Of a stretch of DNA of 40,505 nucleotides, positions 10,054-26,369 are shown piece after piece; position 1 is the stretch's first letter; each line of letters starts with the position of its first letter. The stretch spans positions 1 through 40,505 of the forward strand of contig JAKFWO010000012.1 in assembly GCA_021731815.1 (NCBI GenBank), in the 5' to 3' direction. The notes below the pieces were generated by a model. It was not told the origin of the DNA and did not search any database. It saw only the letters and a program-made list of their open reading frames with translations. The translations under genes were made by a program, and so were the position numbers. Origin of the DNA: Hyphomonadaceae bacterium (GTDB lineage Bacteria; Pseudomonadota; Alphaproteobacteria; Caulobacterales; Aquidulcibacteraceae).

Positions 10054-10970
10054 GCACTCTTCCCCCCGCCCCCGACATTTCCATATCCTTCGAATTCTTT
10101 CCGCCGAAAAGCGAGGAAGCGGAGGCCCAATTATGGCGGACCATTGCTGCGCTCGAACCCTTTGCCCCGCGCTTTGTGTCGGTGACCTATGGGGCCGGCG
10201 GCTCGACCCGCGAACGCACCCACCGGACGCTGACGCGCATCAGGCAGGAAACCGGGCTCGAACCGGCCGCCCATCTCACCTGTATCGGGGCGGGGCGCGC
10301 GGAAATCCTCGACATTGCCGACCAATATTGGGCGAATGGCGTGCGCCACATCGTGGCCCTGCGCGGCGATCCTCCGGGTGGGCCGGGGGAAGATTTTGTG
10401 GGCGCGGCCGACGGCTTTGCCAATGCCACCGAACTCACAGCGGGACTATGCGCAGCACATCCGTTTGAAATCAGCGTCGCCTGCTATCCGGAGGGCCATC
10501 CCGAAAGCCCCTCGTTCGCCCATGACATCGCTGTGCTGAAGGCCAAGCAGGATGCGGGCGCGACGCGCGCCATCACCCAGTTCTTCTTTTCGATCGAGCC
10601 GGTTCTGCGCTTTGTCGATGCCGCGCGCCGGGCGGGGATTACCATCCCGATCGTGCCGGGCATCATGCTCCAGCCCAATTTCGCCGGGCTGTCGCGCATG
10701 GCGAAATTATGTGGTGCCACGATGCCCGACCAGATCGCGGCGGCGTTTCACGGGCTCGAGGCCGATCCTGAGGCGCGGATGCTGGTGGCCGCCACGATCG
10801 CGGCTGAAATCGCAGTCAAATTGCGCGCCGAAGGCTTTGCGGATTTCCATTTCTACACGCTCAACCGCCGGGAACTGGCGGCCGCGCTCTGCCGGTTGCT
10901 GGGCCGGCGCATGAAACCGACCGGGACGGCGGACGTCACAGCCAAACCTGCAACCCGGCAAACAGGATGA
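10050..10970 (+). CDS. metF: Methylenetetrahydrofolate reductase
   Basis: It reduces 5,10-methylene-THF to 5-methyl-THF, the methyl donor for MetH, with FAD as cofactor. The 306-residue product has the family markers FEFFPPKSEE near the N-terminus, SVTYGAGGSTR, HLTCIGAGR, LRGDPPGGP and ITQFFFSIEPVLRFV, and it is a single catalytic TIM barrel without the eukaryotic regulatory domain. The start at 10050 overlaps the stop of the ArsR-methyltransferase gene, and its own end overlaps the start of the next gene (10967), so all are translationally coupled. Earlier in-frame starts would lie inside the upstream gene and are unlikely. Confidence 0.96.
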   Translation: MSTLPPAPDISISFEFFPPKSEEAEAQLWRTIAALEPFAPRFVSVTYGAGGSTRERTHRTLTRIRQETGLEPAAHLTCIGAGRAEILDIADQYWANGVRHIVALRGDPPGGPGEDFVGAADGFANATELTAGLCAAHPFEISVACYPEGHPESPSFAHDIAVLKAKQDAGATRAITQFFFSIEPVLRFVDAARRAGITIPIVPGIMLQPNFAGLSRMAKLCGATMPDQIAAAFHGLEADPEARMLVAATIAAEIAVKLRAEGFADFHFYTLNRRELAAALCRLLGRRMKPTGTADVTAKPATRQTG

Positions 10971-12043
10971 AACCGATGACCGAAGGAATTGCGGAGCGAC
11001 TCGCTGCGATCGCTGCGTCGCGGATCCTGATCCTCGATGGCGGGTTCGGTACCGAATTGCAGCGCCTCGGGCTCGGGGAAGCCGATTACCGCAATGCCGA
11101 TCTCGCCGGGCATGAAGCGCCACTCAAGGGCAATCACGATATCCTTGCGCTGACCAGACCTGATGTCCTGCGCAATCTTCACGATTCCTATTTCGCGGCG
11201 GGTGCGGATTTTGCCAGCACCAATACGTTCAGCGCGACGGCAATCGCCCAGGCCGAATATGGCCTCGCCGGATCTGCGCCCCGCATCGCTCTGGAAGCTG
11301 CCCGCATCGCCCGGGAATCGGCCGATGAATGGAGCCGCAAAACACCCGCCCAGCCCCGCTTCGTCGCCGGCTCGATCGGCCCGCTCAACAAGACCCTGTC
11401 GCTGTCGCCCGATGTCAATGACCCGGCATTCCGCGCCGTGGATTTCGACGATGTCTACACGGCCTATGCCGAACAGATCCGCGCGCTGGCAGATGGCGGG
11501 GCGGATGTGCTGCTGCTGGAAACCGTGTTCGATACGCTCAATGCCAAGGCAGCGATCAAGGCCGCGCTCGATCTGTTCGAGGGCCCGCTCGATCCCATGC
11601 CGCTATGGATCTCCGGCACGATCACCGACCGCTCCGGGCGGACATTGTCGGGACAGACGGTCGAGGCCTTCTGGCATTCGATCCGCCATGCCGAACCCTT
11701 TGCCGTCGGGCTCAATTGCGCGCTCGGGGCCGATCTGATGCGGCCCTTCATCGTAGAACTGGCGCAAATCGCCGACACGCTGGTCTCGGCCTATCCCAAT
11801 GCCGGCCTGCCCAATTCCATGGGCGAATATGACGAGGGACCCGGCGAAACCTGTGCCCATCTCGCAAGCTGGGCCCGCGAAGGGCTCGTGAATATTCTGG
11901 GCGGATGTTGCGGCACGACTCCTCACCACATCGCCCATATCGCGAAGGCGGCAGCGCAGATCGCGCCACGCGAAATTCCCCGCAAGCCGGCGGCGCTGCG
12001 ACTTTCGGGCCTTGAGCCCTTTACCTCGCTTGCAGCCCTGTGA
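10967..12043 (+). CDS. metH: Methionine synthase, homocysteine-binding half (split MetH)
   Basis: This 358-residue protein is the homocysteine S-methyltransferase module of cobalamin-dependent methionine synthase. It shows [12 protein letters not shown] near the N-terminus, ADFASTNTF, and the zinc-binding [10 protein letters not shown] at the C-terminus; an upstream cysteine in VGLNCALG supplies the third zinc ligand. In many bacteria this is the first quarter of one large MetH; here it is a separate gene, followed after 51 bp by the folate/B12/activation part. The split form occurs in several alphaproteobacterial groups. It overlaps metF by four bases. A stand-alone homocysteine methyltransferase is possible in principle, but the next gene lacks this module, so the two must act together. 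Confidence 0.93.
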
Positions 12044-12094
12044 GCCTTGCTCTGCCTCCGTTCCGCCAATATCGCCTGTGAAAAAGCGCCCCGA

Positions 12095-14737
12095 ATGACA
12101 TTTGCGAATTTCATCAATATTGGCGAGCGGACCAATGTCACCGGCTCTGCCCGGTTTCGCAAGCTGATCGAGGCCGGCGATTATCCGGAAGCCTTGCGCA
12201 TCGCGCGCGCCCAGATCGAGGCCGGTGCCCAAATCATCGACGTCAATATGGATGAGGGTCTGCTCGATTCGACCAAAGCGATGACCACCTTCATGAAGCT
12301 GATCGCCAGCGAACCCGATATCGCGCGGGCGCCGATCATGATCGACAGCTCGAAATGGGAGGTGATCGAGGCCGGCCTGAAATGCGTGCAGGGCAAGGCC
12401 ATCGTCAATTCGATCTCGCTGAAGGAAGGCGAGGCGATCTTTCTCGAACAGGCGAAGGCCGTGCGCCGTTACGGGGCGGCCGCCGTAATCATGGCCTTTG
12501 ACGAACAGGGTCAGGCCGACAGCGTGGAGCGCAAATTCGACATCTGCGCGCGCGCCTTCCGCCTGCTGACCACCAAAGCGCGTTTCCCGGCCGAGGACAT
12601 CATCTTTGACCCGAACATCTTTGCGGTCGCGACCGGAATCGAGGAACATAATGACTACGCCCAGGCATTTTTCGAGGCCGTGCGGCTGATCAAGCATCAC
12701 TTGCCGGTGGCGCGGACCTCGGGCGGGGTGTCCAATGTCAGCTTCGCCTTTCGCGGCAACGAGCCGGTCCGCCGGGCCATGCATTCGGTCTTTCTTTACC
12801 ACGCCATTCGCGCCGGGCTCGATATGGGCATCGTCAATGCCGGCGATCTGCCGGTCTATGACGAGATCGATCCCGAATTGCGGCAATTGGCCGAGGACGT
12901 CATCCTCAACCGCGATCCGGGTGCCACCGAACGCCTTGTCGCTGCCGCACCCAAATTCAAGGGCCAGAAGCCCGCCGACAAGGCAGAGGATCATGTGTGG
13001 CGCGGCCTGCCGGTGGCCGATCGTCTCGCTTATGCCCTCGTCCACGGGCTCAATGAGTTTGTCGTGGCGGATACGGAGGAAGTGCGGCTCCTCGCGCGGT
13101 CCCCGCTCGATGTCATCGAAGGCCCGCTGATGGCGGGCATGAACAAGGTCGGCGACCTGTTTGGCGCGGGGAAAATGTTCCTGCCCCAGGTCGTCAAATC
13201 GGCGCGCGTCATGAAACAGGCGGTCGCCCATCTCATTCCCTTCATCGAAGCGGAAAAGGAAAAAAGCGGACTGGCGCAGTCATCGCGCGGCAAAATCGTG
13301 CTCGCCACCGTGAAGGGTGATGTCCATGACATCGGCAAAAACATTGTCGGCGTGGTGCTGCAATGCAATGGCTATGACATTATCGATCTCGGCGTGATGG
13401 TGCCGGGCGAGCGCATCCTCGAGGCCGCGCGCGAACATGGTGCCGACATGATCGGCCTGTCGGGTCTGATCACGCCAAGCCTTGACGAAATGGCCCAATT
13501 CGCCGCCGCCATGACCCGGGCGGGGCTCGATCTGCCGCTGCTGATCGGTGGGGCGACCACCTCGCGCACCCATACGGCGGTCCGGATCGAGCCGGCCTAT
13601 TCCGCAGGCCCCGTGATCCATGTGAATGATGCCTCGCGCGCGGTCGGCGTGGTCGGCGCGCTGATGAATCCCGCCGAGCGTGAAGGCTTCTGGCAGGCCG
13701 CGAAAACCGAATTGGCGGATGCGCGCGCGGCCTATGCCCGCGGCCGCGAGACCCGGACGCGACTACCACTGGCCGAAGCCCGCAAGCGCCGCTTCGTTCC
13801 GGACTGGCAGCGCCACCCGCCGGTGATTCCGGCGCGTCCCGGCGTGCATGCGATCGCGCCCTGGCCGCTCGCGGATCTCGTTCCCTGTATCGACTGGACT
13901 CCCTTTTTCTCCTCCTGGGATCTGGCGGGAGCCTATCCCGCCATTCTGACCGATGATGTGGTCGGCCCGGCCGCACGCACCTTGTTCGACGACGCCGGGG
14001 TCATGCTCGCCAAAATGATCGCCGAGGGCCAGATCGAGGCACGGGCGGTTTTCGGCTTCTGGCCGGCCGCTGCCGAGGGCGATGACATCGTGGTGTTTGC
14101 CGACGATACGCGCCGCACCGGGATTGGCCGGTTTCACACCTTGCGCCAGCAGATCGACAAGGCGGGACCCGCTTATGCGCTGGCCGATTTCGTCGCACCG
14201 CTGGCAAGTGGCATTGCCGATCATGTCGGCGGGTTTTGCGTGACGGCGGGCATTGGCGAGGATGCCCGATCCTCGGCACTCATCGCGGCCAATGACGATT
14301 ACGGCGCGATCCTCGGCAAGGCGCTGTGCGACCGGCTGGCGGAGGCTCTCGCCGAGCGTCTGCACCAAAGGGTGCGGCGCGAATTCTGGGGTCATGCGCC
14401 GGACGAGGCCCTGTCGCCATCCGACCTCATCGCGGGGAAATATCAGGGCATCCGCCCCGCACCCGGCTATCCCGCCCAGCCCGACCACACGGAAAAGGCG
14501 ACCCTGTTCCGCCTGCTGGACGCCGAAGCCCGGATCGGGGTGCAGCTGACCGAAAGCTTCGCCATGCACCCGGCGGCTTCGGTGTCGGGCCTCTACCTCG
14601 CCCATCCGGAATCGATTTATTTCGGCGTGGGGCGGATCGGGCGCGATCAGGTCACAGACTATGCGCAGCGCAAGGCCTGGCCGCCGGCGACCGCCGAGCA
14701 ATGGCTGCGCCCGATCCTCGCTTATGAGCCGGAATAA
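12095..14737 (+). CDS. metH: Methionine synthase, folate/B12/activation half (split MetH)
   Basis: The 880-residue protein has the remaining MetH modules in order: pterin-binding barrel ([18 protein letters not shown], 1 to about 260), the cobalamin cap (about 300-395), the Rossmann B12 domain with the cobalt ligand His411 in [12 protein letters not shown] and the SGL and GG(A)TTS loops, and the reactivation domain (about 560-880, ending with [18 protein letters not shown] and [11 protein letters not shown]). It transfers methyl from methyl-THF through cobalamin to homocysteine bound by the preceding protein. ATG 12095 is preferred; a TTG at 12047 would add 16 residues without family resemblance. 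No B12 riboswitch is seen ahead of it. The gene ends the operon. Confidence 0.94.
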
Positions 14738-14768
14738 GCCGGGCGAGCCTCCGGGGGAGTTTCGCGCG

Positions 14769-16922
14769 TCAGCGACCGGCAGTCGCCGGCTGGGGTCCCG
14801 ATGATGATGCTGCGGCAGCCGGCTCAGCAGGCACTTTGGCGGCAAGATGTTGGGCGAGAAAACGCTCGGTATGTTCGAGCAGCGCAATCCGCGTTTCCCC
14901 GATCGACAACCAATGGTCGTCTCCGTTCAGCTCGATCAGGGTAACGGGCTTGCCGGCCGCCTTGAGGCGTCGTTCCATCAGCCGCGATTGCTCGACATTG
15001 ACGACGGTGTCTTCCTTGCCATGAAGCAAAAGGATCGGTGCCCGTGCCGCATCCGCGTGCCGGGCGGGCGATATCGCCTTGATCCGGTCGGCATCGGCCG
15101 CCGGGTCACCAATCGACAATTTCCAGTAATCCACGGTCGAAGATTCTCTGCCGTTCCGCTCAACCGCCCGGGAAAGCATTCCCAGTGGATCGGAGACCCC
15201 GGCGATACTGATCGCGCAGGAATATAATTCGGGCGTCAGCGTGGCACCCGCCAGTGCGGCATAACCACCATAGCTCGCGCCCATGATACAAATGCGTTCC
15301 GGATCTGCGATGCCCGCGCGGATGAGCGCTTTCACCCCGTCCGTAACATCATTTTGCATTACGCCGCCCCATTCCCGCCAGCCAGCGCGTTCCCAGGTTC
15401 GGCCAAATCCCTTGGATCCCCGAAAATTCGGTTGCAAAACAGCATAGCCGCGCGAGGCCAGAAATTCAGCGATGAAATCGAACTCGAGATGATCGCGCGC
15501 TGCCGGACCACCATGCGGAAACACGACCATCGGAAGCTTCTTGCCGGGAACACCGGCGGGCAAGGTAAGATAAGCAGGGATTCCAACCTTGTCGCGCGCC
15601 TTGTACTTGATGGCCTGACGCTCACCCAACTCGATATTCATCAGTTCTGGATATTGAGAGGTAATGAAAATCAATTTCTGAGCGGTACGGTCATACAGAT
15701 AATAGGCCGGGACCCCATTATCCGCTTCACCCTCGACAAGAAATTTCGACTTTTCCTTATCCCAGGACACAAGTGAAAATGAAGCGCCATTAAAAAATTT
15801 TCCGATCACCTTCCGGGTTTCGATCAGGTCATTGTCGAAAAACACCTGTTTTTCCTCATCGGTGTTCAGCAATACGCCGACAATCGTGTGAGACGCTGGA
15901 TCAATTATTGCGCCAGAAAACTCCACCCCAGGTATTTCAAAACGCTTTTTTGGAGTAAGGTTTTTTCGATCATAGGTCAGCAAGGACGGAAAATCTGTAC
16001 CTTGCTCTGCTTCGACAGATACAAATTCCCCCGTTCCATCAATCAAACGCGAAAAGAAAGGATTTCCACCTGTGAGTCCTTGCCGTTTGATTGCAGAACG
16101 CCAATTAGATCCTTCCTTGACAAAGAATTCGAAGGTGTTGTTGGCATCGGATTCATCAACCCGCGCAACCACTTCGCCATTTTCATCAAGAACATATTCG
16201 CGCGTCTTGCTGTTTCCGTGGTGGCGAAGCACCATCCGGCCTGTCGTCAAATTCACATCATAAAGATTATACACTCTGGTGCTGGTTTCGACTTCAAAAG
16301 CAGCCATCGGAATCGTGCGCTCGGTCGACTTCAGGGTTTCGTCAATCCGTTTCGACCAAACTGTGAATGCTGTATTGAGCCAGGACGATTCAAAATCATG
16401 GCCAAGCATTACCTGATCTTTTCCATCCAACGAAACCGAAATGAACCGATAATATTCCCTCAAACCAGTTCGATTCGATGAATTGACTCCAATCTGACCT
16501 TTAAACGGATTAACTGCTTCGCTCATTTCAACCAGAACCCGATCATTCGCAGGAAACACCACCCTCCGAACCTTTCCTCCCTCTGGTCCCACTCTAACGC
16601 TACCAACCGGCTTCAGATCAGGGATGGACAGGAAAATGGCTCCCCGGTTCTCACCTGTGGCCATGATCAGCGCCACATGCTTGCCGTCGGGAGAGACCGC
16701 ACCACTGGAAACCATGGGAAGCTTGCCATAAACATTTGCGGGGAGTGGAGCCTTGCCGGAATTTTCTTCGGCAAGCGCCATTGGCACCAGGCCAGGCCCG
16801 AGGATAATCATCAGCGCAAGGCAGCCTGCGGCCGCCTTTCGCCAGACGCTCCGGTTTTCGCGTCGGAGGATTTCCCGCGCATTCACGGAAAACCCGGGAT
16901 TGGCTTGTGGTGTGCGTGCCAT
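14769..16922 (-). CDS. S9-family serine peptidase, exported or membrane-anchored
   Basis: The C-terminal alpha/beta-hydrolase domain has the S9 triad: Ser560 in GASYGGYA, Asp648 in HGKEDTVV and His680 in GDDHW. Ahead of it is a beta-propeller-like region of about 450 residues. The N-terminus (MARTPQANPG...) has a basic stretch and a hydrophobic segment (about 34-50) ending in a possible signal-peptidase site after MALA, so it acts in the periplasm or as a membrane anchor. A TTG start 25 codons earlier is possible. Such enzymes cleave short peptides (dipeptidyl- or acylaminoacyl-peptidase type). It lies 150 bp downstream of the GntR gene on the same strand; a role on muropeptide peptides is inference. 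The propeller part is visibly AT-richer (about 45% GC in sampled lines) than the catalytic part. Confidence 0.88.
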   Translation of the reverse strand: MARTPQANPGFSVNAREILRRENRSVWRKAAAGCLALMIILGPGLVPMALAEENSGKAPLPANVYGKLPMVSSGAVSPDGKHVALIMATGENRGAIFLSIPDLKPVGSVRVGPEGGKVRRVVFPANDRVLVEMSEAVNPFKGQIGVNSSNRTGLREYYRFISVSLDGKDQVMLGHDFESSWLNTAFTVWSKRIDETLKSTERTIPMAAFEVETSTRVYNLYDVNLTTGRMVLRHHGNSKTREYVLDENGEVVARVDESDANNTFEFFVKEGSNWRSAIKRQGLTGGNPFFSRLIDGTGEFVSVEAEQGTDFPSLLTYDRKNLTPKKRFEIPGVEFSGAIIDPASHTIVGVLLNTDEEKQVFFDNDLIETRKVIGKFFNGASFSLVSWDKEKSKFLVEGEADNGVPAYYLYDRTAQKLIFITSQYPELMNIELGERQAIKYKARDKVGIPAYLTLPAGVPGKKLPMVVFPHGGPAARDHLEFDFIAEFLASRGYAVLQPNFRGSKGFGRTWERAGWREWGGVMQNDVTDGVKALIRAGIADPERICIMGASYGGYAALAGATLTPELYSCAISIAGVSDPLGMLSRAVERNGRESSTVDYWKLSIGDPAADADRIKAISPARHADAARAPILLLHGKEDTVVNVEQSRLMERRLKAAGKPVTLIELNGDDHWLSIGETRIALLEHTERFLAQHLAAKVPAEPAAAASSSGPQPATAGR

Positions 16923-17072
16923 GAAATCCACCCATTGGCCGGATTCAAGGAGCGAGCAAATCCGCCCCTTTTCCAATGAAGGTACAGAATGCCTCAATCC
17001 CGATCGGATTCAAGCCATGCAACGCATTTGCCAAAATGAAGCTCCGTTGGTGAAGTCCGCAGCGGAACCCGC

Positions 17073-17819
17073 TCACAATCCCCCCGAAGCCCCACGCAAT
17101 TCACTCACAAATTCATAGCGCTCGCCACGATAGGCCGAGCGGGTGAGTTCAACCGGCCTGCCATCGGCGCGCCGTGTCAGGCGCTCGATGCGCAGAATTT
17201 CGTCGCCTTCCTTGACGCCCAACAGCTTCGCCTCATTGGGTCCCGCAAGGGCTGCCCGAATTTTCTGCCGGCCGCTGACCGGCCGATTGCCCAATTCCGC
17301 CAGCGCCTTGTAAAGCGAGTGCCCAAGGGCTCCGATTTCGGGCAGCATTTCGGCCGGAACCACCGCATTTTCGATGGCGAGCGGCTCGCCATCCGCCATG
17401 CGCACGCGGTTGAGCCGCAATACGCTTTCCTCCCCCTCCAGTTCGAGCAAGCGGGCTTCCTCCTCGCTCGCCACACCCTGCGTCTTCGACACCCATAAGG
17501 TGGTCGTTGTCTCGCCCCGCGCTTCGGCGTCCTCGCTGAAACCGGTGAGCCAGGAACCCGGGGCCTGAATACGCGGGGTGACATAGGTGCCCGAGCCCTG
17601 ACGGCGGGTCAGCATCCCCTCCTCGATCAGCAATTCGATCGCCTTGCGCACCGTCACGCGCGATGCCCCCATCAGGGTGCATAAATCGCGCTCCGAGGGC
17701 AGGGCCTCGCCCGCGACATTCTTGCCTTCGACGATTTGCGTCCGCAGGCTCTGGGCAAGCTGCATATAGATTGGCGAATGGCGATGGGCAGCCCGGGGCT
17801 TGTTGCGGGCCGAATTCAT
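17073..17819 (-). CDS. GntR/HutC-family regulator with UTRA sensor domain
   Basis: The 248-residue protein has a GntR winged helix (about 15-80; LPSERDLCTLMGASRVTVRK) and a UTRA ligand-binding domain (about 95-240; RLNRVRMADGEPLAIEN, then RRADGRPVELTRSAYRGERYEF at the end). HutC-type regulators typically sense sugars, sugar phosphates or histidine-derived ligands. Its start overlaps the stop of murQ by four bases, so it is made with the etherase and probably responds to MurNAc-6-phosphate or GlcNAc-6-phosphate. In enterobacteria the comparable regulator, MurR, is of the RpiR family, so this is a different regulator type for the same job (inference). A candidate operator lies at 23261-23277. 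Confidence 0.93.
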   Translation of the reverse strand: MNSARNKPRAAHRHSPIYMQLAQSLRTQIVEGKNVAGEALPSERDLCTLMGASRVTVRKAIELLIEEGMLTRRQGSGTYVTPRIQAPGSWLTGFSEDAEARGETTTTLWVSKTQGVASEEEARLLELEGEESVLRLNRVRMADGEPLAIENAVVPAEMLPEIGALGHSLYKALAELGNRPVSGRQKIRAALAGPNEAKLLGVKEGDEILRIERLTRRADGRPVELTRSAYRGERYEFVSELRGASGGL

Positions 17820-18724
17820 CGGGGCACCTCCCCATCTGCGTCGAGTGCCGCGTCGAGTGCCGCGCGGAGCGTGCCGCCATGGGCGGCCAGCCGCGCATTG
17901 GCTTCCGCCGGGCTCTTGCCCATGGCGACCAGCACCGCCGCCTTGATATTGCCATCCGTTTGCTCAAGCGCGCACCGGGCCACATCCTCGGGGCAGCCGG
18001 CCAACGAGGCCACCATGGCCTGCGCGCGCGCCAGCAATTTCTCGTTAGAAATCTGCATATCGACCATCAGCCCGCGATAGACGCGCCCGAGACGCAGCAT
18101 GATCGTGGTCGAGAGGATGTTCAGGATCGCCTTTTGCGCGGTTCCCGCCTTCATGCGGGTCGAGCCCGCGATGATCTCGCTGCCCGTCGCCGCGAGCAGC
18201 CCATATTCGGCCGCCGCCAGAATGGGAGCCCCGGGATTATTGGCCACCGCGATGGTCAGCGCGCCGGCCGCGCGCGCGGAATCGATCACCGCAAGCGTGA
18301 AGGGGGTACGCCCGCTGGCGGCGACGCCGATGACCACATCCCCATGCCCGACCTGTGCCTCGGCCACCGCCATTCGCGCGGCCGGCATGTCGTCTTCGGC
18401 CCCTTCCGCGCTGTGCGACAGGGCCGCGATCCCGCCCGCCAGCAGATGGACGAGGCGCGTATCCGGCCAGCCAAAAGTCGGGCCGAGCTCCACCCCGTCC
18501 TGAACCGCGACCCGGCCCGAGGTCCCGGCACCGGAATAAACGAGCCGCCCGCCCGCCGCGAGCCGCAATGCCGCCGCATCGGCCGCCGCCGCGATCGCCC
18601 CGGTGGTCGCCCGGACTGCGGCCAGTGCCGCCAGCTGCCCGTCAAGCATTGCCTCGACCGCCCTGATCGTCGGCCAGCGGTCGAGATCGACGAAATCGGG
18701 ATCATGATCTTCAGTCGTGGGCAT
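17816..18724 (-). CDS. murQ: N-acetylmuramic acid 6-phosphate etherase
   Basis: MurQ removes the lactyl ether from MurNAc-6-phosphate and gives GlcNAc-6-phosphate, a step in recycling or scavenging peptidoglycan. The 302-residue product has the SIS-domain signature VYSGAGTSGRVAVQDGVELGPTFG, the HSAEGAEDD segment with the catalytic glutamate, GVAASGRTPF, and GSTRMKAGTAQK, all typical of MurQ. The C-terminus has the UBA-like helical region. ATG 18724 is chosen, overlapping the symporter stop by 14 bases; a GTG at 18739 is also possible. No MurNAc kinase (AmgK or AnmK) and no MurP phosphotransferase is visible in the window, so the phosphorylating step must be encoded elsewhere. Confidence 0.95.
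   Translation of the reverse strand: MPTTEDHDPDFVDLDRWPTIRAVEAMLDGQLAALAAVRATTGAIAAAADAAALRLAAGGRLVYSGAGTSGRVAVQDGVELGPTFGWPDTRLVHLLAGGIAALSHSAEGAEDDMPAARMAVAEAQVGHGDVVIGVAASGRTPFTLAVIDSARAAGALTIAVANNPGAPILAAAEYGLLAATGSEIIAGSTRMKAGTAQKAILNILSTTIMLRLGRVYRGLMVDMQISNEKLLARAQAMVASLAGCPEDVARCALEQTDGNIKAAVLVAMGKSPAEANARLAAHGGTLRAALDAALDADGEVPR
17839..17862. repeat. 12-bp tandem duplication inside murQ
   Basis: Two perfect copies of cgtcgagtgccg lie near the 3' end of murQ and encode the repeated ALDA motif in RAALDAALDADG. The duplication is in frame and near the C-terminus, so it should be tolerated. Confidence 0.8.
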
Positions 18725-20315
18725 GGCCAAGGCTTTCACTGCGCGCAGGCTTCGTCTTTCCCAGCATACAGATCGCCATTGCGATTCCGGTACCGATGCA
18801 GAGTTGCCATGGAAACGCGATGCGCTTCAGCATGTCGGGCAGCCCCAATTGGTCGACGACAATGCCCTGAAAACACAGGATCACCAGGAAGCCCCCGATC
18901 AGCGCCGCAATCACCGAGGCCGATGACCCCCGCTTCGTGAACACCGCCGTCGCATACACGCCCAACAGCCCGGAATAGGCGAATGCCATGACGCCGAGCA
19001 CAAAATCCAGCAATGGCAGATTGCTGTATCGCTGCCAGTAATAGCACAGGATTGACATCGCAAACAACACAAACCCGATAAGCACCGTTGCGACACGTCC
19101 CGCCAGAACATAATGCGATTCCGCCCGCTTTGCCCGCCGATCCCTCAGCGGCCGGTAGAAATCATTGACGAGAACCGCCGACATCGAGATCAGCCCCGAA
19201 TTGATCGCCGCCGCCGCGATGACTCCCACGGTCACCAGACCACGCAGACCGGGCGGGATTTCACTCAGGATGAAATGCATGAAGACGGTGATCTTCTCGC
19301 CGGCGAAACTGGTCGCCACTTGCGCATCGTCGCGGGCCATCAGCTCGGGTCGCTCATAGAATACATGCAAAAGCGAGCCGATCATCAGGAAGATCACGAT
19401 GACCGGAATCGATGCCCAGACCGAGACAAGCAATGCCCGCGATCCGTCGCGCGCATTGTCACAGGCCAGAAGGCGCTGCGTCGTATCCTGATCGAGCCCG
19501 GAATTCCCGACATTGAGCAAGGTGATCCCGGTGACGATGGCCAGCAGCGAAAAGGTCTTTTCAAACCCGGGCGAGAAATCGAGGACCTGAAGCTTGTCCA
19601 CGGTTTCCCCGTTTGGGGTGGCTGCGGGCGAGAGCTGCAGGGCCCCGATGATCTCGGGGATGGAGGCCGGGATCTTCCCGAGCAGGAAGACCAGCACCAC
19701 GATCGCCGCCCCGACATAGAGGATGACCTGGACAAGATCGCTCCAGATCACCGCATTGAGCCCGCCCATGAAGGTGAAAGCGATCCCGAACACCAGCAGC
19801 ACCAGAGAGGCAATCACGAGGTGCCCGGGCTCGATATCGAGGAACAGCACCATGGAAACGGCGATGGCCGCGAGATAGAGCCGTGCTCCGCTGGCAAAGA
19901 CCCGTCCCACCAGATACATGGCCCCCGCCGCGCGGCGGGCCACCACATCATAGCGTTGCTCGAGCAGCTCATAGACCGTCGACGCCCCCATGGCATAAAA
20001 GCGCGGAATGAGCACCCGGGAGACGATGAGTGCGGCCAGCATCGCGCCGATCACCCCCGCCAGATAAGTGTAATTGCCCCGGAAACTGTTATCGGGCACG
20101 CCGAGAAAGGTCGCGGCCGATTGGGTGGTCGACAACACCGACACCGCCACAAGCCAGGTGGGTGCCCGGTGGCTGGCCAGAAAATAATCATCCGCCGTCC
20201 GGATCCGGCGTCGCGTGGCAAGAAACCCGGCCAGTGCCAGAATCGCCACATAGCCCGCAAGGATTGCCCAATCGAGCCCCGTGAAAACTGGCCCCGTGAA
20301 GACTGGCCCGGTCAA
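18711..20315 (-). CDS. Sodium:solute symporter, probably for amino sugars
   Basis: The 534-residue protein is an SSS-family (SLC5-like) transporter with about 13 membrane helices. Typical signs are the N-terminal DWAILAGYVAILALAGF followed by RRRIRTADDYFLASHRAPTW, ATFLGVPDNSFRGN, and the GLDQDTTQRLLAC segment found in SSS proteins. It overlaps murQ and follows the TonB receptor by 105 bp, so it most likely moves MurNAc, anhydro-MurNAc or a related sugar across the inner membrane; the substrate is inferred from neighbours. No ATG fits the N-terminus: the frame is open from an upstream TGA and offers only a TTG (20315), so start codon and length are uncertain. The first residues are encoded by a 15-bp duplication. 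Confidence 0.9.
   Translation of the reverse strand: MTGPVFTGPVFTGLDWAILAGYVAILALAGFLATRRRIRTADDYFLASHRAPTWLVAVSVLSTTQSAATFLGVPDNSFRGNYTYLAGVIGAMLAALIVSRVLIPRFYAMGASTVYELLEQRYDVVARRAAGAMYLVGRVFASGARLYLAAIAVSMVLFLDIEPGHLVIASLVLLVFGIAFTFMGGLNAVIWSDLVQVILYVGAAIVVLVFLLGKIPASIPEIIGALQLSPAATPNGETVDKLQVLDFSPGFEKTFSLLAIVTGITLLNVGNSGLDQDTTQRLLACDNARDGSRALLVSVWASIPVIVIFLMIGSLLHVFYERPELMARDDAQVATSFAGEKITVFMHFILSEIPPGLRGLVTVGVIAAAAINSGLISMSAVLVNDFYRPLRDRRAKRAESHYVLAGRVATVLIGFVLFAMSILCYYWQRYSNLPLLDFVLGVMAFAYSGLLGVYATAVFTKRGSSASVIAALIGGFLVILCFQGIVVDQLGLPDMLKRIAFPWQLCIGTGIAMAICMLGKTKPARSESLGHAHD
20277..20306. repeat. 15-bp tandem duplication at the symporter N-terminus
   Basis: Two copies of ccccgtgaaaactgg (one mismatch) lie head to tail and are followed by a partial third (cccggtc). 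They encode TGPVF-TGPVF-TG at the very start of the symporter, just before its first membrane helix. The length is a multiple of three, so the frame is preserved. Confidence 0.85.
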
Positions 20316-20420
20316 GGCAGCTTCGCCGATGCCGGAATCAGCGATGGGGGCTCCGAATGCACCTTTTTCCGTTCCCGATCCCGACTTTCGGAGCCATGCA
20401 TCGCCTGCACCTCTGCCGGA

Positions 20421-23195
20421 TCAGAATTTATACGCGGCACTGAAGCCGAAGCGCCGCCCGATCACGTCATAGGTGTTGGGGAATGTATTGAAGTTTTCCT
20501 GATTGGAGCCCGCGATCGGCGGTTGCTTGTCGGTGAGATTGTCGATGCCGACAGTGAGGCTGAGACCAAAATCGAGGTCATAGCTGGCCGCGATGTCGAT
20601 ATAATCCTGCGCCGACAACCGGCTGGTCGCAGCGACCGCCCCATTATTGCGGACCGTGCCGATGCGCTGCCAGCTGGCTTGCAGCGTCAGCGCGCCGACA
20701 TCCCACGCCCCCGAAATGAGGTGGCGATAATCGGCCTGGACATTGGAATCGATCGCGCACGCTGTTCCGAATGTGCCCGCGCAATCGATCACCGGCGTGA
20801 ACTGGCTGTTCTGGCGGGTCTGGCCGAACACGAAGCTGCCGGCATAACGAACGGTCAGGGCACCATGGCCGCCCAGTTCCAGCCGGTAGCGCGCTGAGAC
20901 GTCGAGCCCGTCCACCGTAAAGCGCGACACATTTCGGTCGGTAACGTCAGCCAGCGCGATCTGTCCATTGGCCCCGCGCGGAACCAGCGCGCAGAGCGGA
21001 TTGTCAGCCACGGGATTGGTCACATAACAATCACGCGCGGCCGCTTCGGGAAAGATCACGAACAGGCCGCCATCGATGTCAATGTCGAAATAATCGACCG
21101 AGACCGACAGACCCTTGAGGAAGCGCGGATTGAACACGGCACCGATCGTGTAGCTCGTCGCCTCTTCGGGCAGCAGATCGGGATTGCCGCCAAAGATGAA
21201 CAAGGCCGAACCGACATTGGTCACGAAGGGCGCGGACGGCGCGCCAAAGCGCGCGCATTGAGCCACATTGGCACCCGTGAGGGCCGGATTGCTGCACGGA
21301 TCGACCAGCACGCCGCTGGCCACCCGGGGCGCGAGCGCGATGCTGGCGATCGGGCCAAACAATTCCCCGACATTCGGCGAGCGGATCGAGGTCTGATAGC
21401 TGCCACGCAGGCGGAAATCATCGACGACGATCCAGTTTGCCCCGATCTTCCAGGACCCGGAATTGCCGGAGGTCGAGAAATCGGAAAAGCGGTATCCGCC
21501 CTCGATATCGAATTGCTGCACCAGCGGCAGGTTTGAGAGCACCGGTACGCGCCCTTCAACGAAGAATTCCTTCACATTGAAACCGCCAATGATCGAGGGG
21601 CGCGTGCCCTGCTCGAAGGTCTGGCCGGTCGCGACGAGGCCATCATTGTCCTCGCGCGCCTGTTCATTGCGATATTCGAAGCCGAGAACGAGTTCGATCG
21701 GCCCCGCCGGCAATTCGAAAATGCCCGCACTGGTGCCGTTGAGCGTGAACCCGGCTACCGTCTGTTCGCGCAACCGGTCGCGATTGACCGGAACCGTGAT
21801 GAAGCCCACCGCGGCGGCGCTGAGCGCATTGGGGCCAAACAGATTGGCCGGTGCGCAGGAATTGCTCGGGTCAACGCAGACCGGCTCGCCCGCGGCATTG
21901 ACCGTCGCATTGGCCGCCTGGAGGAGCCGCGCCGGCAGGCCATCGCCGCTGATGCGATTGCTTTCATCCGAACGCCCGTATTGGACATAGGCATCATAGC
22001 TGAGCGAGGGGAACAATTCCCCCCGAAAGCCGATCTGCCCCTGGGCATTGGTGCGGTTGGTATCACGGAGGGTCGGGCCGAATTCGGCAAAGGACCGCGC
22101 CACGCTGACCGTTGCTTCGCCGGTCGGGCCAAAGGTCAAGGCCGAGCGGATGGCGGGGGTCAAAAACGGGTTGTCGCTGCGGATCGTCGCATTAAAGGTG
22201 CGCTCGACCGGATCGAGCTGGCTGCTGACCTCGGTATTGGAAACATTGACCCGGCCATAGATCGTCGCGGCCGGAACGAGTTCATAATGGAACAATACCC
22301 CGCCATCGATTCGCCGCGCCGGCTGGATCAGCGAATTGATTCCCGAAAACTCGCTCAATTGCGGCGTGCGAGTAAAGGCCCCGGCATCGGTGAAGGAGAA
22401 GACCGACGCGCCCTGCGTAAAGGTGCCGCCGGCCGGCCGCACCCGCAGGATCCCGGCATCATTGCGCTCGGGCGAGGAAAAATCGCGCTCGCCGGCAAGG
22501 ATTTCCGACCGGTTGGTGTAGCCGAGATAGGCCGTGACATTGCCGCGATTGCCAATCTTGCCGCCGACAATGGCACTCGCATTATATTGGCGGCCATCGC
22601 CTTCGTCGGAAATCTCGACCCCGCCGCGCAATTCAACGCCTTCAAAATCGTCCTTGAGGGCGAAATTGACGACGCCGACCACGGCATCGGCCCCATAGAC
22701 AGTGCTGGCACCGCCGGTCAGCACTTCGACCCGCTCGATCAACCCGACCGGAATAGAACTCACATCCACCGAATTGCGGAAGCCAAAGGGCGCCCCACGC
22801 TTGCCATCAATGAGGACGAGGGTGCGGTTCTGCCCGAGCCCGCGCAGATCGAGGACCGAGGCACCGAAGGCATCATTGCCCGCACTTCCGCCACCGATCC
22901 CACCCGCTACCTGCGGCAGCGTACCGACAATTTCATCGACAAAGGTTGAGCGGTCGAGGGCAATCGCCTCGGCATCGAGGGTGACGACCGGGCTGATCGC
23001 ATTGACTTCCGCCCCGCGCAGGCGCGTGCCGACGACGACCACATCGCCCTCGTCCCCGGCCTGGTCTTCCGCCTGATCCGCAGCTTGCGCCCCTGTGGGC
23101 ACCTGCTGGGCGAATGCCGGCGTTGCGAGCAATACCCCGACAAGGACCAGACTTGCGGATCCGCAGAGCAATTTCCTCGAAAGATCGTCCCTCAT
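20421..23195 (-). CDS. TonB-dependent outer-membrane receptor, large sugar/oligomer type
   Basis: The 924-residue protein has a signal peptide (MRDDLSRKLLC...ATPAFAQ), an acidic linker with a TonB-box-like VVVVGTR, a plug domain (LDLRGLGQNRTLVLIDGKR, IERVEVLTGGASTVYGADAVVGVVN) and a C-terminal beta barrel ending in FGFSAAYKF, with a terminal aromatic residue as usual for the Bam machinery. The plug sequence is of the class often linked to sugars and peptides rather than iron. ATG 23195 has GGGGAG upstream; an ATG five codons earlier lacks one. It leads a same-strand run of symporter, murQ, GntR regulator and S9 peptidase, so I infer uptake of muropeptides or MurNAc-containing sugars. A promoter and operator candidate lie at 23233-23277. 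Confidence 0.94.
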   Translation of the reverse strand: MRDDLSRKLLCGSASLVLVGVLLATPAFAQQVPTGAQAADQAEDQAGDEGDVVVVGTRLRGAEVNAISPVVTLDAEAIALDRSTFVDEIVGTLPQVAGGIGGGSAGNDAFGASVLDLRGLGQNRTLVLIDGKRGAPFGFRNSVDVSSIPVGLIERVEVLTGGASTVYGADAVVGVVNFALKDDFEGVELRGGVEISDEGDGRQYNASAIVGGKIGNRGNVTAYLGYTNRSEILAGERDFSSPERNDAGILRVRPAGGTFTQGASVFSFTDAGAFTRTPQLSEFSGINSLIQPARRIDGGVLFHYELVPAATIYGRVNVSNTEVSSQLDPVERTFNATIRSDNPFLTPAIRSALTFGPTGEATVSVARSFAEFGPTLRDTNRTNAQGQIGFRGELFPSLSYDAYVQYGRSDESNRISGDGLPARLLQAANATVNAAGEPVCVDPSNSCAPANLFGPNALSAAAVGFITVPVNRDRLREQTVAGFTLNGTSAGIFELPAGPIELVLGFEYRNEQAREDNDGLVATGQTFEQGTRPSIIGGFNVKEFFVEGRVPVLSNLPLVQQFDIEGGYRFSDFSTSGNSGSWKIGANWIVVDDFRLRGSYQTSIRSPNVGELFGPIASIALAPRVASGVLVDPCSNPALTGANVAQCARFGAPSAPFVTNVGSALFIFGGNPDLLPEEATSYTIGAVFNPRFLKGLSVSVDYFDIDIDGGLFVIFPEAAARDCYVTNPVADNPLCALVPRGANGQIALADVTDRNVSRFTVDGLDVSARYRLELGGHGALTVRYAGSFVFGQTRQNSQFTPVIDCAGTFGTACAIDSNVQADYRHLISGAWDVGALTLQASWQRIGTVRNNGAVAATSRLSAQDYIDIAASYDLDFGLSLTVGIDNLTDKQPPIAGSNQENFNTFPNTYDVIGRRFGFSAAYKF

Positions 23196-23232
23196 GCCGT
23201 CACTCCCCATCCGGTTTTCTGATTGTCACGAA

Positions 23233-23277
23233 TTCGTAACCGATCCGATGGCGATTGACAATACCATTTAAATACCA
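23233..23277 (-). promoter_or_regulatory. Promoter and candidate GntR operator of the muramic-acid locus
   Basis: On the minus strand TTGTCA (23261-23256) and TACGAA (23238-23233) are separated by 17 bases and form a plausible sigma-70 promoter about 38 bp before the receptor ATG. Next to the -35 box the plus strand reads ATACCATTTAAATACCA (23261-23277): two ATACCA half-sites (TGGTAT on the minus strand) 11 bp apart, one helical turn. TGGTAT-like halves occur in operators of HutC/NagQ-type GntR regulators, though usually inverted rather than direct. Binding by the GntR protein of this locus is inference. Confidence 0.5.
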
Positions 23278-23281
23278 CTGA

Positions 23282-23620
23282 AGCGGATTCAGCATTGGGC
23301 GGGATTTCGAGCATCTTGCCCAATGTGGGCGCGACATAAAGCGCCAAGCTGGTCTGGCTCGTGGATTTCGCGGGTTCCGCGCGGCACCACGATCACCGCG
23401 ACCAATACCCGCGGCACGGAGAGGATTGTTTCGCCACGCGAGACGCGCTCGAACCGCTGATGCGGCGCGCCGCGCCTGACCGTCGAGGTTCGGAGTTCTC
23501 CCTGGCCTCAAGGACCTTATAAACATTCTCGATCGCAGGCGCGATTTTTACGATGCCCGGCAATTCTGTCATTCGCTGCACTCTGGTCCACAAACCCGGC
23601 TTGACCCTTATGTGCCGATC
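23282..23620 (-). pseudogene. Possible decayed coding remnant in three frames
   Basis: Reading the minus strand downward, one frame gives RVKPGLWTRVQRMTELPG...VYKVLEAREN (about 23620-23490). The next frame takes over with ELRTSTVRRG... and RGETILSVPRVLVAVIVV...EPDQLGAL (about 23507-23337), and a third continues with YVAPTLGKMLEIPPNAES (about 23336-23282). Each piece looks protein-like and they abut in order, as in a gene broken by two frameshifts. I recognise no family. Because three frames were searched by eye, chance is a real alternative. The piece runs into the promoter region of the TonB receptor. Confidence 0.25.
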
Positions 23621-23822
23621 GGCCAGATCGTTTGGGTTGACGGCGGCCGCAGGCTGGTCTGAGTGTGAGTTCTTGCGCGATGCACTTGCCGCAAGCATCC
23701 GGGTTCAATCGTCGTTCGCTCCCGCAACCGCAAGAAGCATGGGATTTGCGATTGACTATAGGCACTTGCGTCGCAGGATTGTGTATCGACCTCGTTGCAC
23801 GGTGCAGCGATTTGCGATCGGC

Positions 23823-24066
23823 TGATCGCCCGGCCGCAATATCCATTCCCGGGGACCGCCTTTTCACCGAAAGCCTGACATCCTCACGTAACGGTGCCGT
23901 CTATGCGGCCATTTACGGGATCGACGGCTATGGTTCGCGCACGATCTATCGCGTGTCGCCGGAAAGCGCTGTCGCCGAGGTCTGGATTCCGCCGGCAACC
24001 GCTAATTCTCCAGGCTATTCGGGTGTGTTCGCGGACGACAACACGAATATATTGTGGGCCTGCGTC
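23823..24066 (+). pseudogene. Fragment of an SMP-30/gluconolactonase-like beta-propeller gene
   Basis: About 80 codons encode a segment that resembles the first blades of SMP-30/gluconolactonase/LRE-like proteins: PAAISIPGDRLFTESLTSS, NGAVYAAIYG, TIYRVSPES, AEVWIPPA and GVFADDNTNILWACV. It has no believable start or signal peptide upstream. On the 3' side the similarity stops abruptly where transposase-like sequence begins (about 24087). It is most simply a gene truncated by insertion or deletion. The family call is from recognition of the motif pattern only. Confidence 0.5.
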
Positions 24067-24086
24067 CTTCCCGGGCGCATGCCGGG

Positions 24087-24503
24087 CCGGCCTCCCACGA
24101 CCGCGAAGCGTTGGCGGATCGACCGTCGAAGCCGGACCGCTTCTGGAATAAAATCCCGGACGCCGTCCAGGTTCAAATCGTTGAATTGGCGCTGGATGCG
24201 CCGGAGTTGAGCCCCCGCGACCTCGCGGTGCGCTTCACCGACGAGCAGCGCTAATTCGTCTCGGAATCCAGCGTCAATCGGCTTTTGAAGGCGCGCGGGC
24301 TTATCACCAGCCCCGCCCGTATCGTCGTCAAGGCCGCCGACGAATTCAAAGACAAGACCAATGCGCCGAACGAGATGTGGCAGACCGATTTCACCTGTCC
24401 CAAGATCATCGGCCGGGGTTGGTATTATCTGTCAACGATCCTGGACGATTATTCGCGCTTCATCATTGCGTGGCGCTTGTTGCCGACCATGTGCGCCGAT
24501 GAT
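24087..24503 (+). mobile_element. Transposase remnant (integrase-core type) with an internal stop
   Basis: The plus strand encodes part of an IS transposase: a helix-turn-helix region (RIVELALD-like, ELSPRDLAVRFTDEQR), then FVSESSVNRLLKARGLITSP and the start of the DDE integrase core, MWQTDFTCPKIIGRGWYYLSTILDDYSRFIIAWRL, which contains the first two expected acidic positions. A TAA at 24252-24254 interrupts the frame exactly where relatives have a tyrosine (RRYFVS-type sequence), and the frame continues without shift after it. Similarity ends near 24503, before the rest of the catalytic core. No inverted repeats or target duplication were found. The element is inactive and ancient or partial. 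Confidence 0.75.
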
Positions 24504-24616
24504 GGCGCGTTTGCGATCACCCATCATAACGGAGCGTCAGATCTCAACGACCCGGATAACAATGCGACCATGCAAGATGTCCGCATGCCGAACTTCAAAT
24601 TGGATTTTCCACATCT

Positions 24617-25999
24617 TTACTCGCGCCATGGCCAGACCGCTGCCCCTGAACCGAGTTTGGCAGCGGGCCGGGACCAGGCCATGGGTGCACCGCCAATGTC
24701 GGCAGGTGGCAACAAGCGTCGGGCTGCACCCCAATCGGTTCGCTCAACGGCTTCAGCGAAATCAAGATCTGCGGACGGTGCAAACGCGGCGATTGACGCA
24801 CTGGCTTTGTGATCGATCAGCAACTTTGCCGTTCGCGCCAGCGACAACCTTCCGGTCGTAGCGACTGCACCTGTCGATCGTGAGATCACCCCGCGCACGG
24901 CGGCGGCTGCAAGCAGATAGCCTGTGGCATGATCGAGGGCCTGAACGGGAAGTGAGACAGGGACGTCCGAATTGCGCCAATCCATACCCTCCGCCGCAAT
25001 CCCTGATGAAAACTGGACGAGGCTGTCAAAGCCCCGCCGTCGCTGCCACGGCCCATTATGGCCATAAGCATCGAGAGAAATGTCAATCAAACCAGGGCGA
25101 ATGGCCTGTCGCGTGCCGACGTCGAGGCCCATGGAATCGAGTGCGTCGCTGCGATAGCCATGAACCAGGATGTCCGCTTCGGCGAGCAATGCGCGCAAGG
25201 CATCGAGCCCGGATTGCGATTTCAAATCCAGTTTCGCGCAACGCTTGCCCAGTGTAACCTCTGGAACAACGCCGGGTTCATCCCAATACGGCGGATCGAT
25301 TCGCAGGACATCGGCTCCAAATCCAGCAAGGAAGCGCGTCGCGACAGGACCCGCGATAACGCGGGTGAGATCAAGCACCCGCAACCCCGAAAGCGGACGG
25401 GCTGGGTCTGACGTCCATTTGTGGTCTGATACCTGACCAGGACCATCCCAGATAATCAGCGGCTCGCCGGCAACTATTTTGCCTTGCGGATGTGACGCCC
25501 ATTCATCGATCGATCGCAACCGCGCTGCGCAGCCCCCGGCGGCAACAATCGCATCTTCAAGCGCATCGCCTCCCGATGATGCCACCACAGCGGCCACTGC
25601 TTCCCGGTTTGCCGCGCAGCCCAGTACCGAGAGCACCGCTGCGCGATGATGGGGGGCATTTGTATGGAGTTTGATCCAGCCATCGCACGCTTTGTAGTCG
25701 CCAGCAATGGTATCCCACGGGTTCGGCATGGCCCAGCCCTGCGGCCGGATCGACCAGCCGAACCAGAGCGACGCCAACCGGGATGATACGGAGGAAGGCG
25801 GAGCAGCGTTGTTCAAACCGATCAATTCGGAAATCGCAGACGCCGCCGCACCGATCGATGCGGCAGCCAGTTCTGTCACCGCAAAACAGGACGACAAATG
25901 ATCGTTCCCGGTAAAACTGATGCGTGATGCGGCACCCTCGGGCAGATCAAGCGCCGCCAAAATCTCCATGAGCATGGACCGGGTGACAGGGTCGGACAT
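24617..25999 (-). CDS. Family III CoA-transferase (CaiB/BaiF type)
   Basis: The 460-residue protein belongs to the family III CoA-transferases, which move CoA between acids by a mechanism using a conserved Asp. The central part LSGLRVLDLTRVIAGPVATRFLAGFGADVLRIDPP is the typical family start-of-domain sequence, followed by LGKRCAKLDLKSQSG and ADILVHGYRSDALDSMGLD. Unusually, about 200 residues precede it, which look like a partial second copy (MPNPWDTIAGDYKACDGWIKLH...), so the order is a circularly arranged or duplicated family form. The start ATG 25999 has a purine-rich AGAGAGAAAG upstream. No acyl-CoA partner gene is adjacent; its substrate is unknown. It stands alone beside a decayed IS region. 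Confidence 0.85.
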   Translation of the reverse strand: MSDPVTRSMLMEILAALDLPEGAASRISFTGNDHLSSCFAVTELAAASIGAAASAISELIGLNNAAPPSSVSSRLASLWFGWSIRPQGWAMPNPWDTIAGDYKACDGWIKLHTNAPHHRAAVLSVLGCAANREAVAAVVASSGGDALEDAIVAAGGCAARLRSIDEWASHPQGKIVAGEPLIIWDGPGQVSDHKWTSDPARPLSGLRVLDLTRVIAGPVATRFLAGFGADVLRIDPPYWDEPGVVPEVTLGKRCAKLDLKSQSGLDALRALLAEADILVHGYRSDALDSMGLDVGTRQAIRPGLIDISLDAYGHNGPWQRRRGFDSLVQFSSGIAAEGMDWRNSDVPVSLPVQALDHATGYLLAAAAVRGVISRSTGAVATTGRLSLARTAKLLIDHKASASIAAFAPSADLDFAEAVERTDWGAARRLLPPADIGGAPMAWSRPAAKLGSGAAVWPWRE

Positions 26000-26304
26000 A
26001 GCTTTCTCTCTCTTTGTCAGGTGAGCGAGTTTATTGGCCGATTGCCAATCAAATCAATCTTGATACACATAATCAATATCAATGGTTGGATTGAACGTGA
26101 CGCCGCGCTGGAGCGCCTGGCGGGCCGTTGAAAAACCCGCTCGCTTTTCCTCCCAATGGATGATTCACGCCTTTGGCGTGTTCGACGAGGGGCATGAGAT
26201 GCCTGGTTCGGATGAGCGACCAAACTTCCTTCTCCCCCCTCCCCCAACTCCGCCATTCAGGGCTTCGACGTCCGAAGGAGCGGTGCACACTGCCTTTCTC
26301 CAGT

Positions 26305-26319
26305 TGCAACTCATTCGCA
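26305..26319. promoter_or_regulatory. Fur-like site 1
   Basis: TGCAACTCATTCGCA keeps the TGnnAnTnATTnnCA core of the 15-bp Fur box (all nine core positions). It lies 51-65 bp upstream of the GTG start of the siderophore-type receptor, where an iron-dependent operator is expected. A second match to the same pattern follows at 26340. Confidence 0.5.
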
Positions 26320-26339
26320 AACTCACTAGAGCCTGCTTC

Positions 26340-26354
26340 TGCGAGTGATTTGCA
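26340..26354. promoter_or_regulatory. Fur-like site 2
   Basis: TGCGAGTGATTTGCA matches the same TGnnAnTnATTnnCA core as the site 35 bp upstream, including the outer TGC/GCA, and sits directly before the ribosome-binding site AAGAAGGAG (26354-26362). Two sites in one short leader make chance less likely. Confidence 0.5.
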
Positions 26355-26369
26355 AGAAGGAGCCGGCCA

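Follow-up and report, generated by a model that had tools for sequence, protein, structure and literature searches.

A probable NagQ-controlled operon for scavenging external muramic acid, with an altered symporter ion site, in a Hyphomonadaceae bacterium

The stretch of DNA considered here (hereafter the window) is the whole of contig C28, 40,505 bases long, from a 2.53-Mb draft genome that is 99.8% complete. Its minus strand carries five consecutive genes, encoding a TonB-dependent outer-membrane receptor, an inner-membrane symporter of the SSS family, MurQ, a GntR/UTRA regulator and an S9 peptidase (Table 1), in agreement with an earlier sequence-only reading of this DNA, whose single-strand layout, gene families and overlaps between symporter, murQ and regulator were all recovered. 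On the longest reading frames, the symporter gene and murQ share 29 nt (14 nt if murQ begins at the next ATG); murQ and the regulator gene share 4 nt, and 105 nt separate the receptor from the symporter. For the receptor, the ATG at 23195 was judged by eye to be a likelier start than position 23210. The S9 gene follows the regulator after 75 nt in its longest frame, which opens with TTG, or after 150 nt if counted from its first ATG. Scans for promoters and terminators gave no excess over shuffled sequences.

Table 1. Features of the operon and its neighbouring peptidase gene, in positions of the window.
Feature	Position	Strand	Basis
TonB-dependent outer-membrane receptor, operon gene 1	20421..23195 (longest frame to 23210)	-	PF00593/PF07715
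SSS-family inner-membrane symporter	18711..20315	-	PF00474
MurQ, predicted MurNAc-6-phosphate etherase	17816..18739	-	NF003915 and NF009222 models; glutamate motifs
NagQ-type GntR/UTRA regulator	17073..17819	-	PF00392 + PF07702
S9 peptidase	14769..16997	-	family match; Ser, Asp, His motifs
Predicted NagQ-type operator TGGTATT-N4-TGGTATT, ahead of the receptor gene	23260..23277	-	exact motif match
Symporter TM8 segment without two Na2-site residues	19194..19223	-	alignment with SiaT and 43 relatives; AlphaFold
Symporter Ser62 codon (SiaT Ala56, Na2 ligand position)	20130..20132	-	alignment

The murQ product is predicted to act as a MurNAc-6-phosphate etherase. In profile searches it scores 333 bits against NF003915 (cut-off 168) and 283 bits against NF009222 (cut-off 255), and it reaches 265 bits against TIGR00274, short of the cut-off of 302. 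Over its full length it can be aligned with two MurQ structures, 4s12 and 4lzj, as well as with 1nri, at E about 1e-61, and the glutamates of its DGVELGPTFG and AEGAEDD motifs fall in line with those of the MurQ structures, at positions that we take to be those of the two active-site glutamates of the enzyme. The nearest named proteins, among the best 80 of at least 592 MurQ relatives, include some from Sphingomonas and Nitrospirillum.

The genes for the neighbouring steps of the pathway are dispersed over other contigs. The sequence-only reading had suggested looking elsewhere in the genome for amgK, anmK, nagA and nagB, and family searches located all of them outside the operon contig: AnmK at C18:3262-4347 (470 bits against NF007141, above cut-off), NagB-II and NagA, encoded by neighbouring genes on C21 (321 bits for NagB-II, below its cut-off of 430; NagA above the TIGR00221 cut-off), and AmgK next to MurU on C41 (L106:11997-13956; 390 and 268 bits, below cut-offs of 500 and 370). 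An AmpG-family permease, above its model cut-off, is encoded on the nagBA contig, and a BadF-type sugar kinase on contig C24. No sugar kinase occurs among the open reading frames listed for window positions 10000-28000, and a search for a PTS EIIC permease gave 0 matches in this genome, the same search being positive in 7 of 14 control genomes. The MurNAc kinase that the earlier reading had placed outside the window, and whose absence from the genome it regarded as fatal to muramic-acid scavenging, thus has two candidates of predicted specificity: AnmK and the BadF-type kinase.

Which of the kinases can supply MurQ? AmgK makes the 1-phosphate, used by MurU, and the 6-phosphate can be yielded by AnmK or by BadF-type kinases of the MurK/NagK type. 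AmgK was thus rejected as the missing kinase, since its 1-phosphate product does not feed MurQ, and of the kinases put forward earlier AnmK stands, joined by a BadF-type candidate. As a separate observation, the AmgK-MurU route returning MurNAc to the wall coexists in this genome with the MurQ route. For the BadF-type kinase, the best model is that of GlcNAc kinase (224 bits, below the cut-off of 370), so that GlcNAc may be a substrate; its nearest solved structures are the putative GlcNAc kinase 1zc6, the hexokinase 2e2n and the MurNAc/GlcNAc kinase 8zo3. Passages of a paper on Tannerella MurK give bulky residues as a criterion that excludes MurNAc from a kinase (PMC10465942). Read on an alignment by the criteria in those passages, the lactyl pocket of the BadF-type kinase contains no bulky acidic residue, and a serine precedes its catalytic aspartate, which suggests that MurNAc could be accommodated. 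MurNAc-6-phosphate could then come from two sources: AnmK, acting on anhydro-MurNAc, and the BadF-type kinase.

Control by a GntR/UTRA (HutC-type) protein had been presented as a departure from the norm; its domains were confirmed, and the departure was not, as the regulator resembles the NagQ of many alphaproteobacteria. Its nearest solved relatives are YvoA (NagR) and DasR. NagQ is described, in the passages concerned, as the GlcNAc regulator of alpha-, beta- and some gammaproteobacteria, acting at tandem sites (PMC5343134), and its site as direct repeats of TGGTATT (PMC4494728). A direct repeat was first spotted by eye upstream of the receptor gene and then matched to this published motif: it reads TGGTATTTAAATGGTATT, with both repeats exact, and is the sole exact match in the 2.53-Mb genome. 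Domains, nearest structures and operator motif together make the regulator look like NagQ. A palindromic HutC-type operator, TGGTNTNNACCA, was also tried and had zero matches in the window.

Elsewhere in the genome, a site with one mismatch (C21:43531) ends 23 nt before the ATG of nagB, which is then followed by nagA, and three further sites have two mismatches. The site of the BadF-type kinase gene, at two mismatches, is on the opposite strand, 47 nt before a GTG start (134 nt before an ATG), and is the weakest of the three predicted operators. Up to two mismatches, the genome holds 5 matches of the motif and 4 of the backward pattern used as a control, so at this level the count by itself is uninformative and the case depends on where the sites lie. 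Near anmK (stretch L096) there is no site at up to 3 mismatches, and near ampG (stretch L097) there is none besides that of nagB. Of the shared operator that had been proposed as a check, nagBA provides a case and the kinase a weaker one, and the stretch around anmK none. On a wider scale, the motif is mildly enriched across 60 family genomes, at 33 matches to the control's 18, and outnumbers the backward control by 14 to 5 (up to two mismatches) at the murQ loci of the 80 best relatives out of at least 592. A further scan with other spacers, outside these counts, covered 19 selected promoter regions: the three Nitrospirillum receptor promoters among them had a 3-nt-spaced repeat with 2-3 mismatches, and in the remaining 16 no match had fewer than 3 mismatches. 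As a side observation, two stretches from another genus of the family (L159 and L160, from genomes G017 and G020) encode a GntR relative (40-44%) close to NagQ-like repeats, with no MurQ in the stretch; the relative in L159 adjoins nagB, and that in L160 lies near a kinase.

The arrangement is found again in another genus of the same family (genome G003), where one 20.8-kb contig carries the receptor (38%), symporter (55%), MurQ (59%) and regulator (60%) genes in the same order, followed after the regulator by nagB, anmK, a gene for a beta-N-acetylglucosaminidase (PF07555) and nagA. This genome has six sites at up to one mismatch against 0 for the control, four of them on the operon contig: 53 nt before the receptor, 36 before nagB, 19 before anmK (an exact match) and about 235 before nagA, as measured on the longest frames. 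The family as a whole does not share this arrangement: murQ occurs in 15 of 60 genomes, an SSS gene lies within 1.5 kb of it in one of the 15 family loci outside the window's own genome (L108, the locus of G003), and six other murQ stretches that were fetched (L124-L129) have no 4-nt-spaced site at up to 2 mismatches. In genus g2 (L162-L169), copies of the symporter 64-65% identical to that of the window occur away from murQ, with no reference gene within 1.5 kb.

Partial or complete versions recur at greater distance. The order receptor-symporter-MurQ-regulator is seen in three Nitrospirillum genomes (L014, L019 and L031), symporter-MurQ-regulator in a Rhizorhabdus MAG (L053, truncated by the end of its contig) and receptor-MurQ-regulator in a Caulobacteraceae MAG (L060). 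Clusters of symporter, kinase and MurQ occur in Rheinheimera (L072), Arsukibacterium (L078) and a gammaproteobacterial MAG (L077), and a kinase relative stands beside the symporter in L181-L183, L187 and L188. For the 80 best-matching MurQ relatives out of at least 592, neighbours up to 5 kb from MurQ were counted, in loci some of which stop at contig ends: a kinase relative in 45 (at any identity), NagA in 30, a regulator relative in 15 (six at only 33-37% identity), NagB-II in 13, AnmK in 10, the symporter (at least 40%) in 10 and the receptor (at least 35%) in 4. These counts exclude symporters below 40% (L044, L057 and L069), a TonB receptor below 35% (L016) and any match not longer than 150 columns.

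What does the symporter carry? A survey of 398 genomes of the order found SSS relatives (E up to 1e-80) in 30 of them, whereas 38 had MurQ (E up to 1e-30): both in 29, SSS only in 1 (G021), MurQ only in 9 and neither in 359, in a set of related genomes whose kinship inflates P values. Counted by genus, MurQ is present in 12 of 12 genera with the symporter against 3 of 47 others. That MurQ accompanies the symporter in all but one of 30 genomes makes muramic acid a likelier substrate for it than GlcNAc, and MurNAc or anhMurNAc is its probable cargo.

The closest solved structure in sequence is SiaT (5nv9, E 8.6e-40), and 5nv9 is likewise the best fold match of the AlphaFold model (TM 0.77/0.85), which has a LeuT-type fold. 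In the passages of the SiaT paper (PMC5931594), the Na2 site consists of Ala56, Leu59, Ala339, Ser342 and Ser343, and the changes Ser342Ala or Ser343Ala abolish transport. These positions were compared over 41 close rows, namely the window protein, 10 symporters from murQ loci (of the best 80 of at least 592) and 30 from other genomes, with SiaT, L044, L057 and L069 excluded. The window protein and 11 others (12 of 41) have a two-residue deletion in TM8 and no Ser/Thr pair at the positions of Ser342 and Ser343. Serine stands at the position of Ala56 in all 12 deletion rows and in L023, which has Ala342; the other 28 rows have alanine there, including three from Nitrospirillum, in which 342 is Gly and 343 is Thr. 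The Na3 residue Asp182, and also Ser60 and Thr63 (SiaT positions), are kept in 41 of 41. The sialic-acid arginine of SiaT, Arg135, was tried as a marker of acidic substrates and fails, the aligned residue being Ala in all 41 rows; arginines at SiaT positions 132 and 139, in TM3, are invariant in them and might be such a marker.

The deletion rows all fall on one side of a branch with support 96/93 (nine are from one genus, eight of them near-copies), so the TM8 deletion is probably a single inherited event. In AlphaFold models of the window protein and of its L029 relative, built from the same 14 sequences, TM8 is an unbroken helix (350-389) in L029 and is broken at 369-371 in the window protein (357-368 and 372-394, pLDDT 86-90); such a shifted helix could still form a sodium site. 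Tentatively, and with the balance leaning slightly against it, this clade may have lost the canonical Na2 site through the TM8 deletion and use a TM1 hydroxyl instead (Ala56 to Ser), the same substrate then being coupled to another ion (e.g. H+) or to a relocated sodium site. The deletion, together with serine for Ala56 in all 12 rows, makes "sodium symporter" an unsafe label for the window protein: of the uptake by TonB receptor and sodium symporter proposed earlier, passage of muramic acid through receptor and symporter holds up as a prediction, and the usual use of sodium is doubtful given the altered Na2 site. In open-licence PubMed Central full text, no paper describing an SSS clade that lacks the Na2 site was found. 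Related carriers with and without Na2 in one pathway would constitute a natural experiment on ion coupling.

Taken together, the receptor, symporter, MurQ and regulator genes quite probably form a NagQ-controlled operon for the scavenging of external muramic acid. Sequence shows directly that the genes are present, that operator-like sites precede some of them, that they cluster in certain relatives and that symporter and MurQ tend to occur together, and from this we infer the substrates of receptor and symporter, the specificity of the kinase, and repression by NagQ together with its effector. A fragment of cell wall bearing MurNAc would be imported across the outer membrane by the TonB receptor, and free MurNAc or 1,6-anhydro-MurNAc would be moved across the inner membrane by the symporter. 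In the cytoplasm, the BadF-type kinase (for MurNAc) or AnmK (for anhydro-MurNAc) would produce MurNAc-6-phosphate, which MurQ would split into GlcNAc-6-phosphate and D-lactate, and NagA and NagB-II would lead on to fructose-6-phosphate. NagQ would repress the operon, nagBA and probably the kinase gene, and be released when an amino-sugar phosphate accumulates. The central proposal of the sequence-only reading, muramic-acid scavenging through a TonB receptor, an SSS carrier and MurQ with the kinase elsewhere, is in this way strengthened by the pathway genes, the nag operator and the co-occurrence of symporter and MurQ.

Could the operon instead serve a general uptake of amino sugars (GlcNAc or chitin oligomers), with receptor and symporter carrying GlcNAc and MurQ recycling the cell's own wall? 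NagQ is known as a GlcNAc regulator in the passages of PMC5343134, Caulobacter has TonB receptors for GlcNAc according to those of PMC13046382, the operator is common to nagBA and the BadF-type kinase is nearest to a GlcNAc-kinase model. This reading is unlikely all the same: a GlcNAc carrier would be expected in genomes without MurQ too, whereas the symporter keeps to MurQ in 29 of 30; anmK carries a NagQ-type site in G003, and the symporter-kinase-MurQ clusters recur in Rheinheimera, Arsukibacterium and the gammaproteobacterial MAG. It also seems quite improbable that the locus is devoted to recycling of the cell's own wall, MurQ draining the MurNAc-6-phosphate derived through AmpG and AnmK, with receptor and symporter recapturing leaked fragments. 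The genome does hold AmpG and AnmK, anmK lies within 5 kb of murQ in 10 of the best 80 of at least 592 loci, and the anmK of G003 has a site; in the window's own genome, however, there is none to 3 mismatches around anmK and only that of nagB around ampG, a leading TonB receptor points to external uptake, and AmgK and MurU are also present to return MurNAc to the wall.

A different extension concerns the S9 peptidase, which had been suggested to be exported and to trim the peptide stems as part of the locus. A five-gene operon of this kind is very improbable, even though the S9 gene comes next on the same strand, has its Ser-Asp-His motifs in place and begins, by eye, like a signal peptide. 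Across the best 80 of at least 592 loci, some cut by contig ends, no S9 match longer than 150 columns lies 5 kb or less from murQ (0 of 80), nor does one occur in the G003 stretch; the gap of 75-150 nt also argues against it, and S9 enzymes cleave peptides of L-amino acids, whereas stem peptides hold D-residues. The comparisons gave no support to a place for the peptidase in the operon, and scavenging of external muramic acid by the four-gene operon is the reading retained.

How does such an operon compare with described systems? The MurR of E. coli is an RpiR-type regulator. Compared with the MurP-MurQ system of that bacterium (PMC5790795), the present genome gave no PTS EIIC permease and the operon has no RpiR regulator, and the chemistry of MurQ is shared. 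A closer likeness is the murT-murK-murQ cluster of Tannerella forsythia, where the passages of PMC5790795 describe an SSS carrier, MurQ and a sugar 6-kinase without PTS, and growth on MurNAc of an E. coli murP mutant given the SSS protein MurT and MurK. Uptake by an SSS carrier with MurQ, which the earlier reading took as a departure from the usual MurP/PTS supply, was thus already known, and the window symporter would be MurT-like by gene context. In contrast to Tannerella, the kinase of the present genome lies outside the operon, on contig C24, and is perhaps linked to it by the operator; the operon adds a TonB receptor and a NagQ-type regulator, and the Na2 site of the symporter is altered.

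With the NagQ regulons of alpha-, beta- and some gammaproteobacteria, the locus shares a GntR/HutC-type regulator, direct repeats of TGGTATT and control of nagA and nagB, but the core described in the passages of PMC5343134 and PMC4494728 consists of GlcNAc genes and a PTS carrier, and in the operon described here murQ is accompanied by genes for an SSS carrier and a TonB receptor, no PTS EIIC having been found in the genome. In mat bacteria, use of MurNAc was predicted from MurQ and the GlcNAc pathway (PMC5507952), much as MurQ and the Nag enzymes are used here; the passages concerned name no MurNAc carrier or regulator. Caulobacter crescentus likewise has an amino-sugar TonB receptor and a GntR regulator in its GlcNAc clusters, and AmpG, AnmK, AmgK and MurU in its MurU shunt, but it is without MurQ and uses a PTS permease, as described in the passages of PMC13046382. 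A search of open-licence PubMed Central full text found no paper on a TonB-SSS-MurQ operon under NagQ. The parts of the operon were already known, and its PTS-free NagQ-type arrangement is new relative to the open papers searched. It would tie MurQ to a NagQ-type regulon and offer a sequence-based rule for spotting PTS-free muramic-acid scavenging in environmental bacteria.

Upstream of the operon lies a fragment of a transposase integrase core (rve, PF00665; 24285-24812, plus strand), and the operon may stand at the edge of a mobile-element scar. A gene for a CoA transferase of the CaiB/BaiF type (PF02515) occupies 24617-25999 on the minus strand. On the other side, the plus-strand frames of 9936-14737 resemble, by eye, a methylenetetrahydrofolate reductase and a split methionine synthase, and the last of them ends convergent with the S9 gene.
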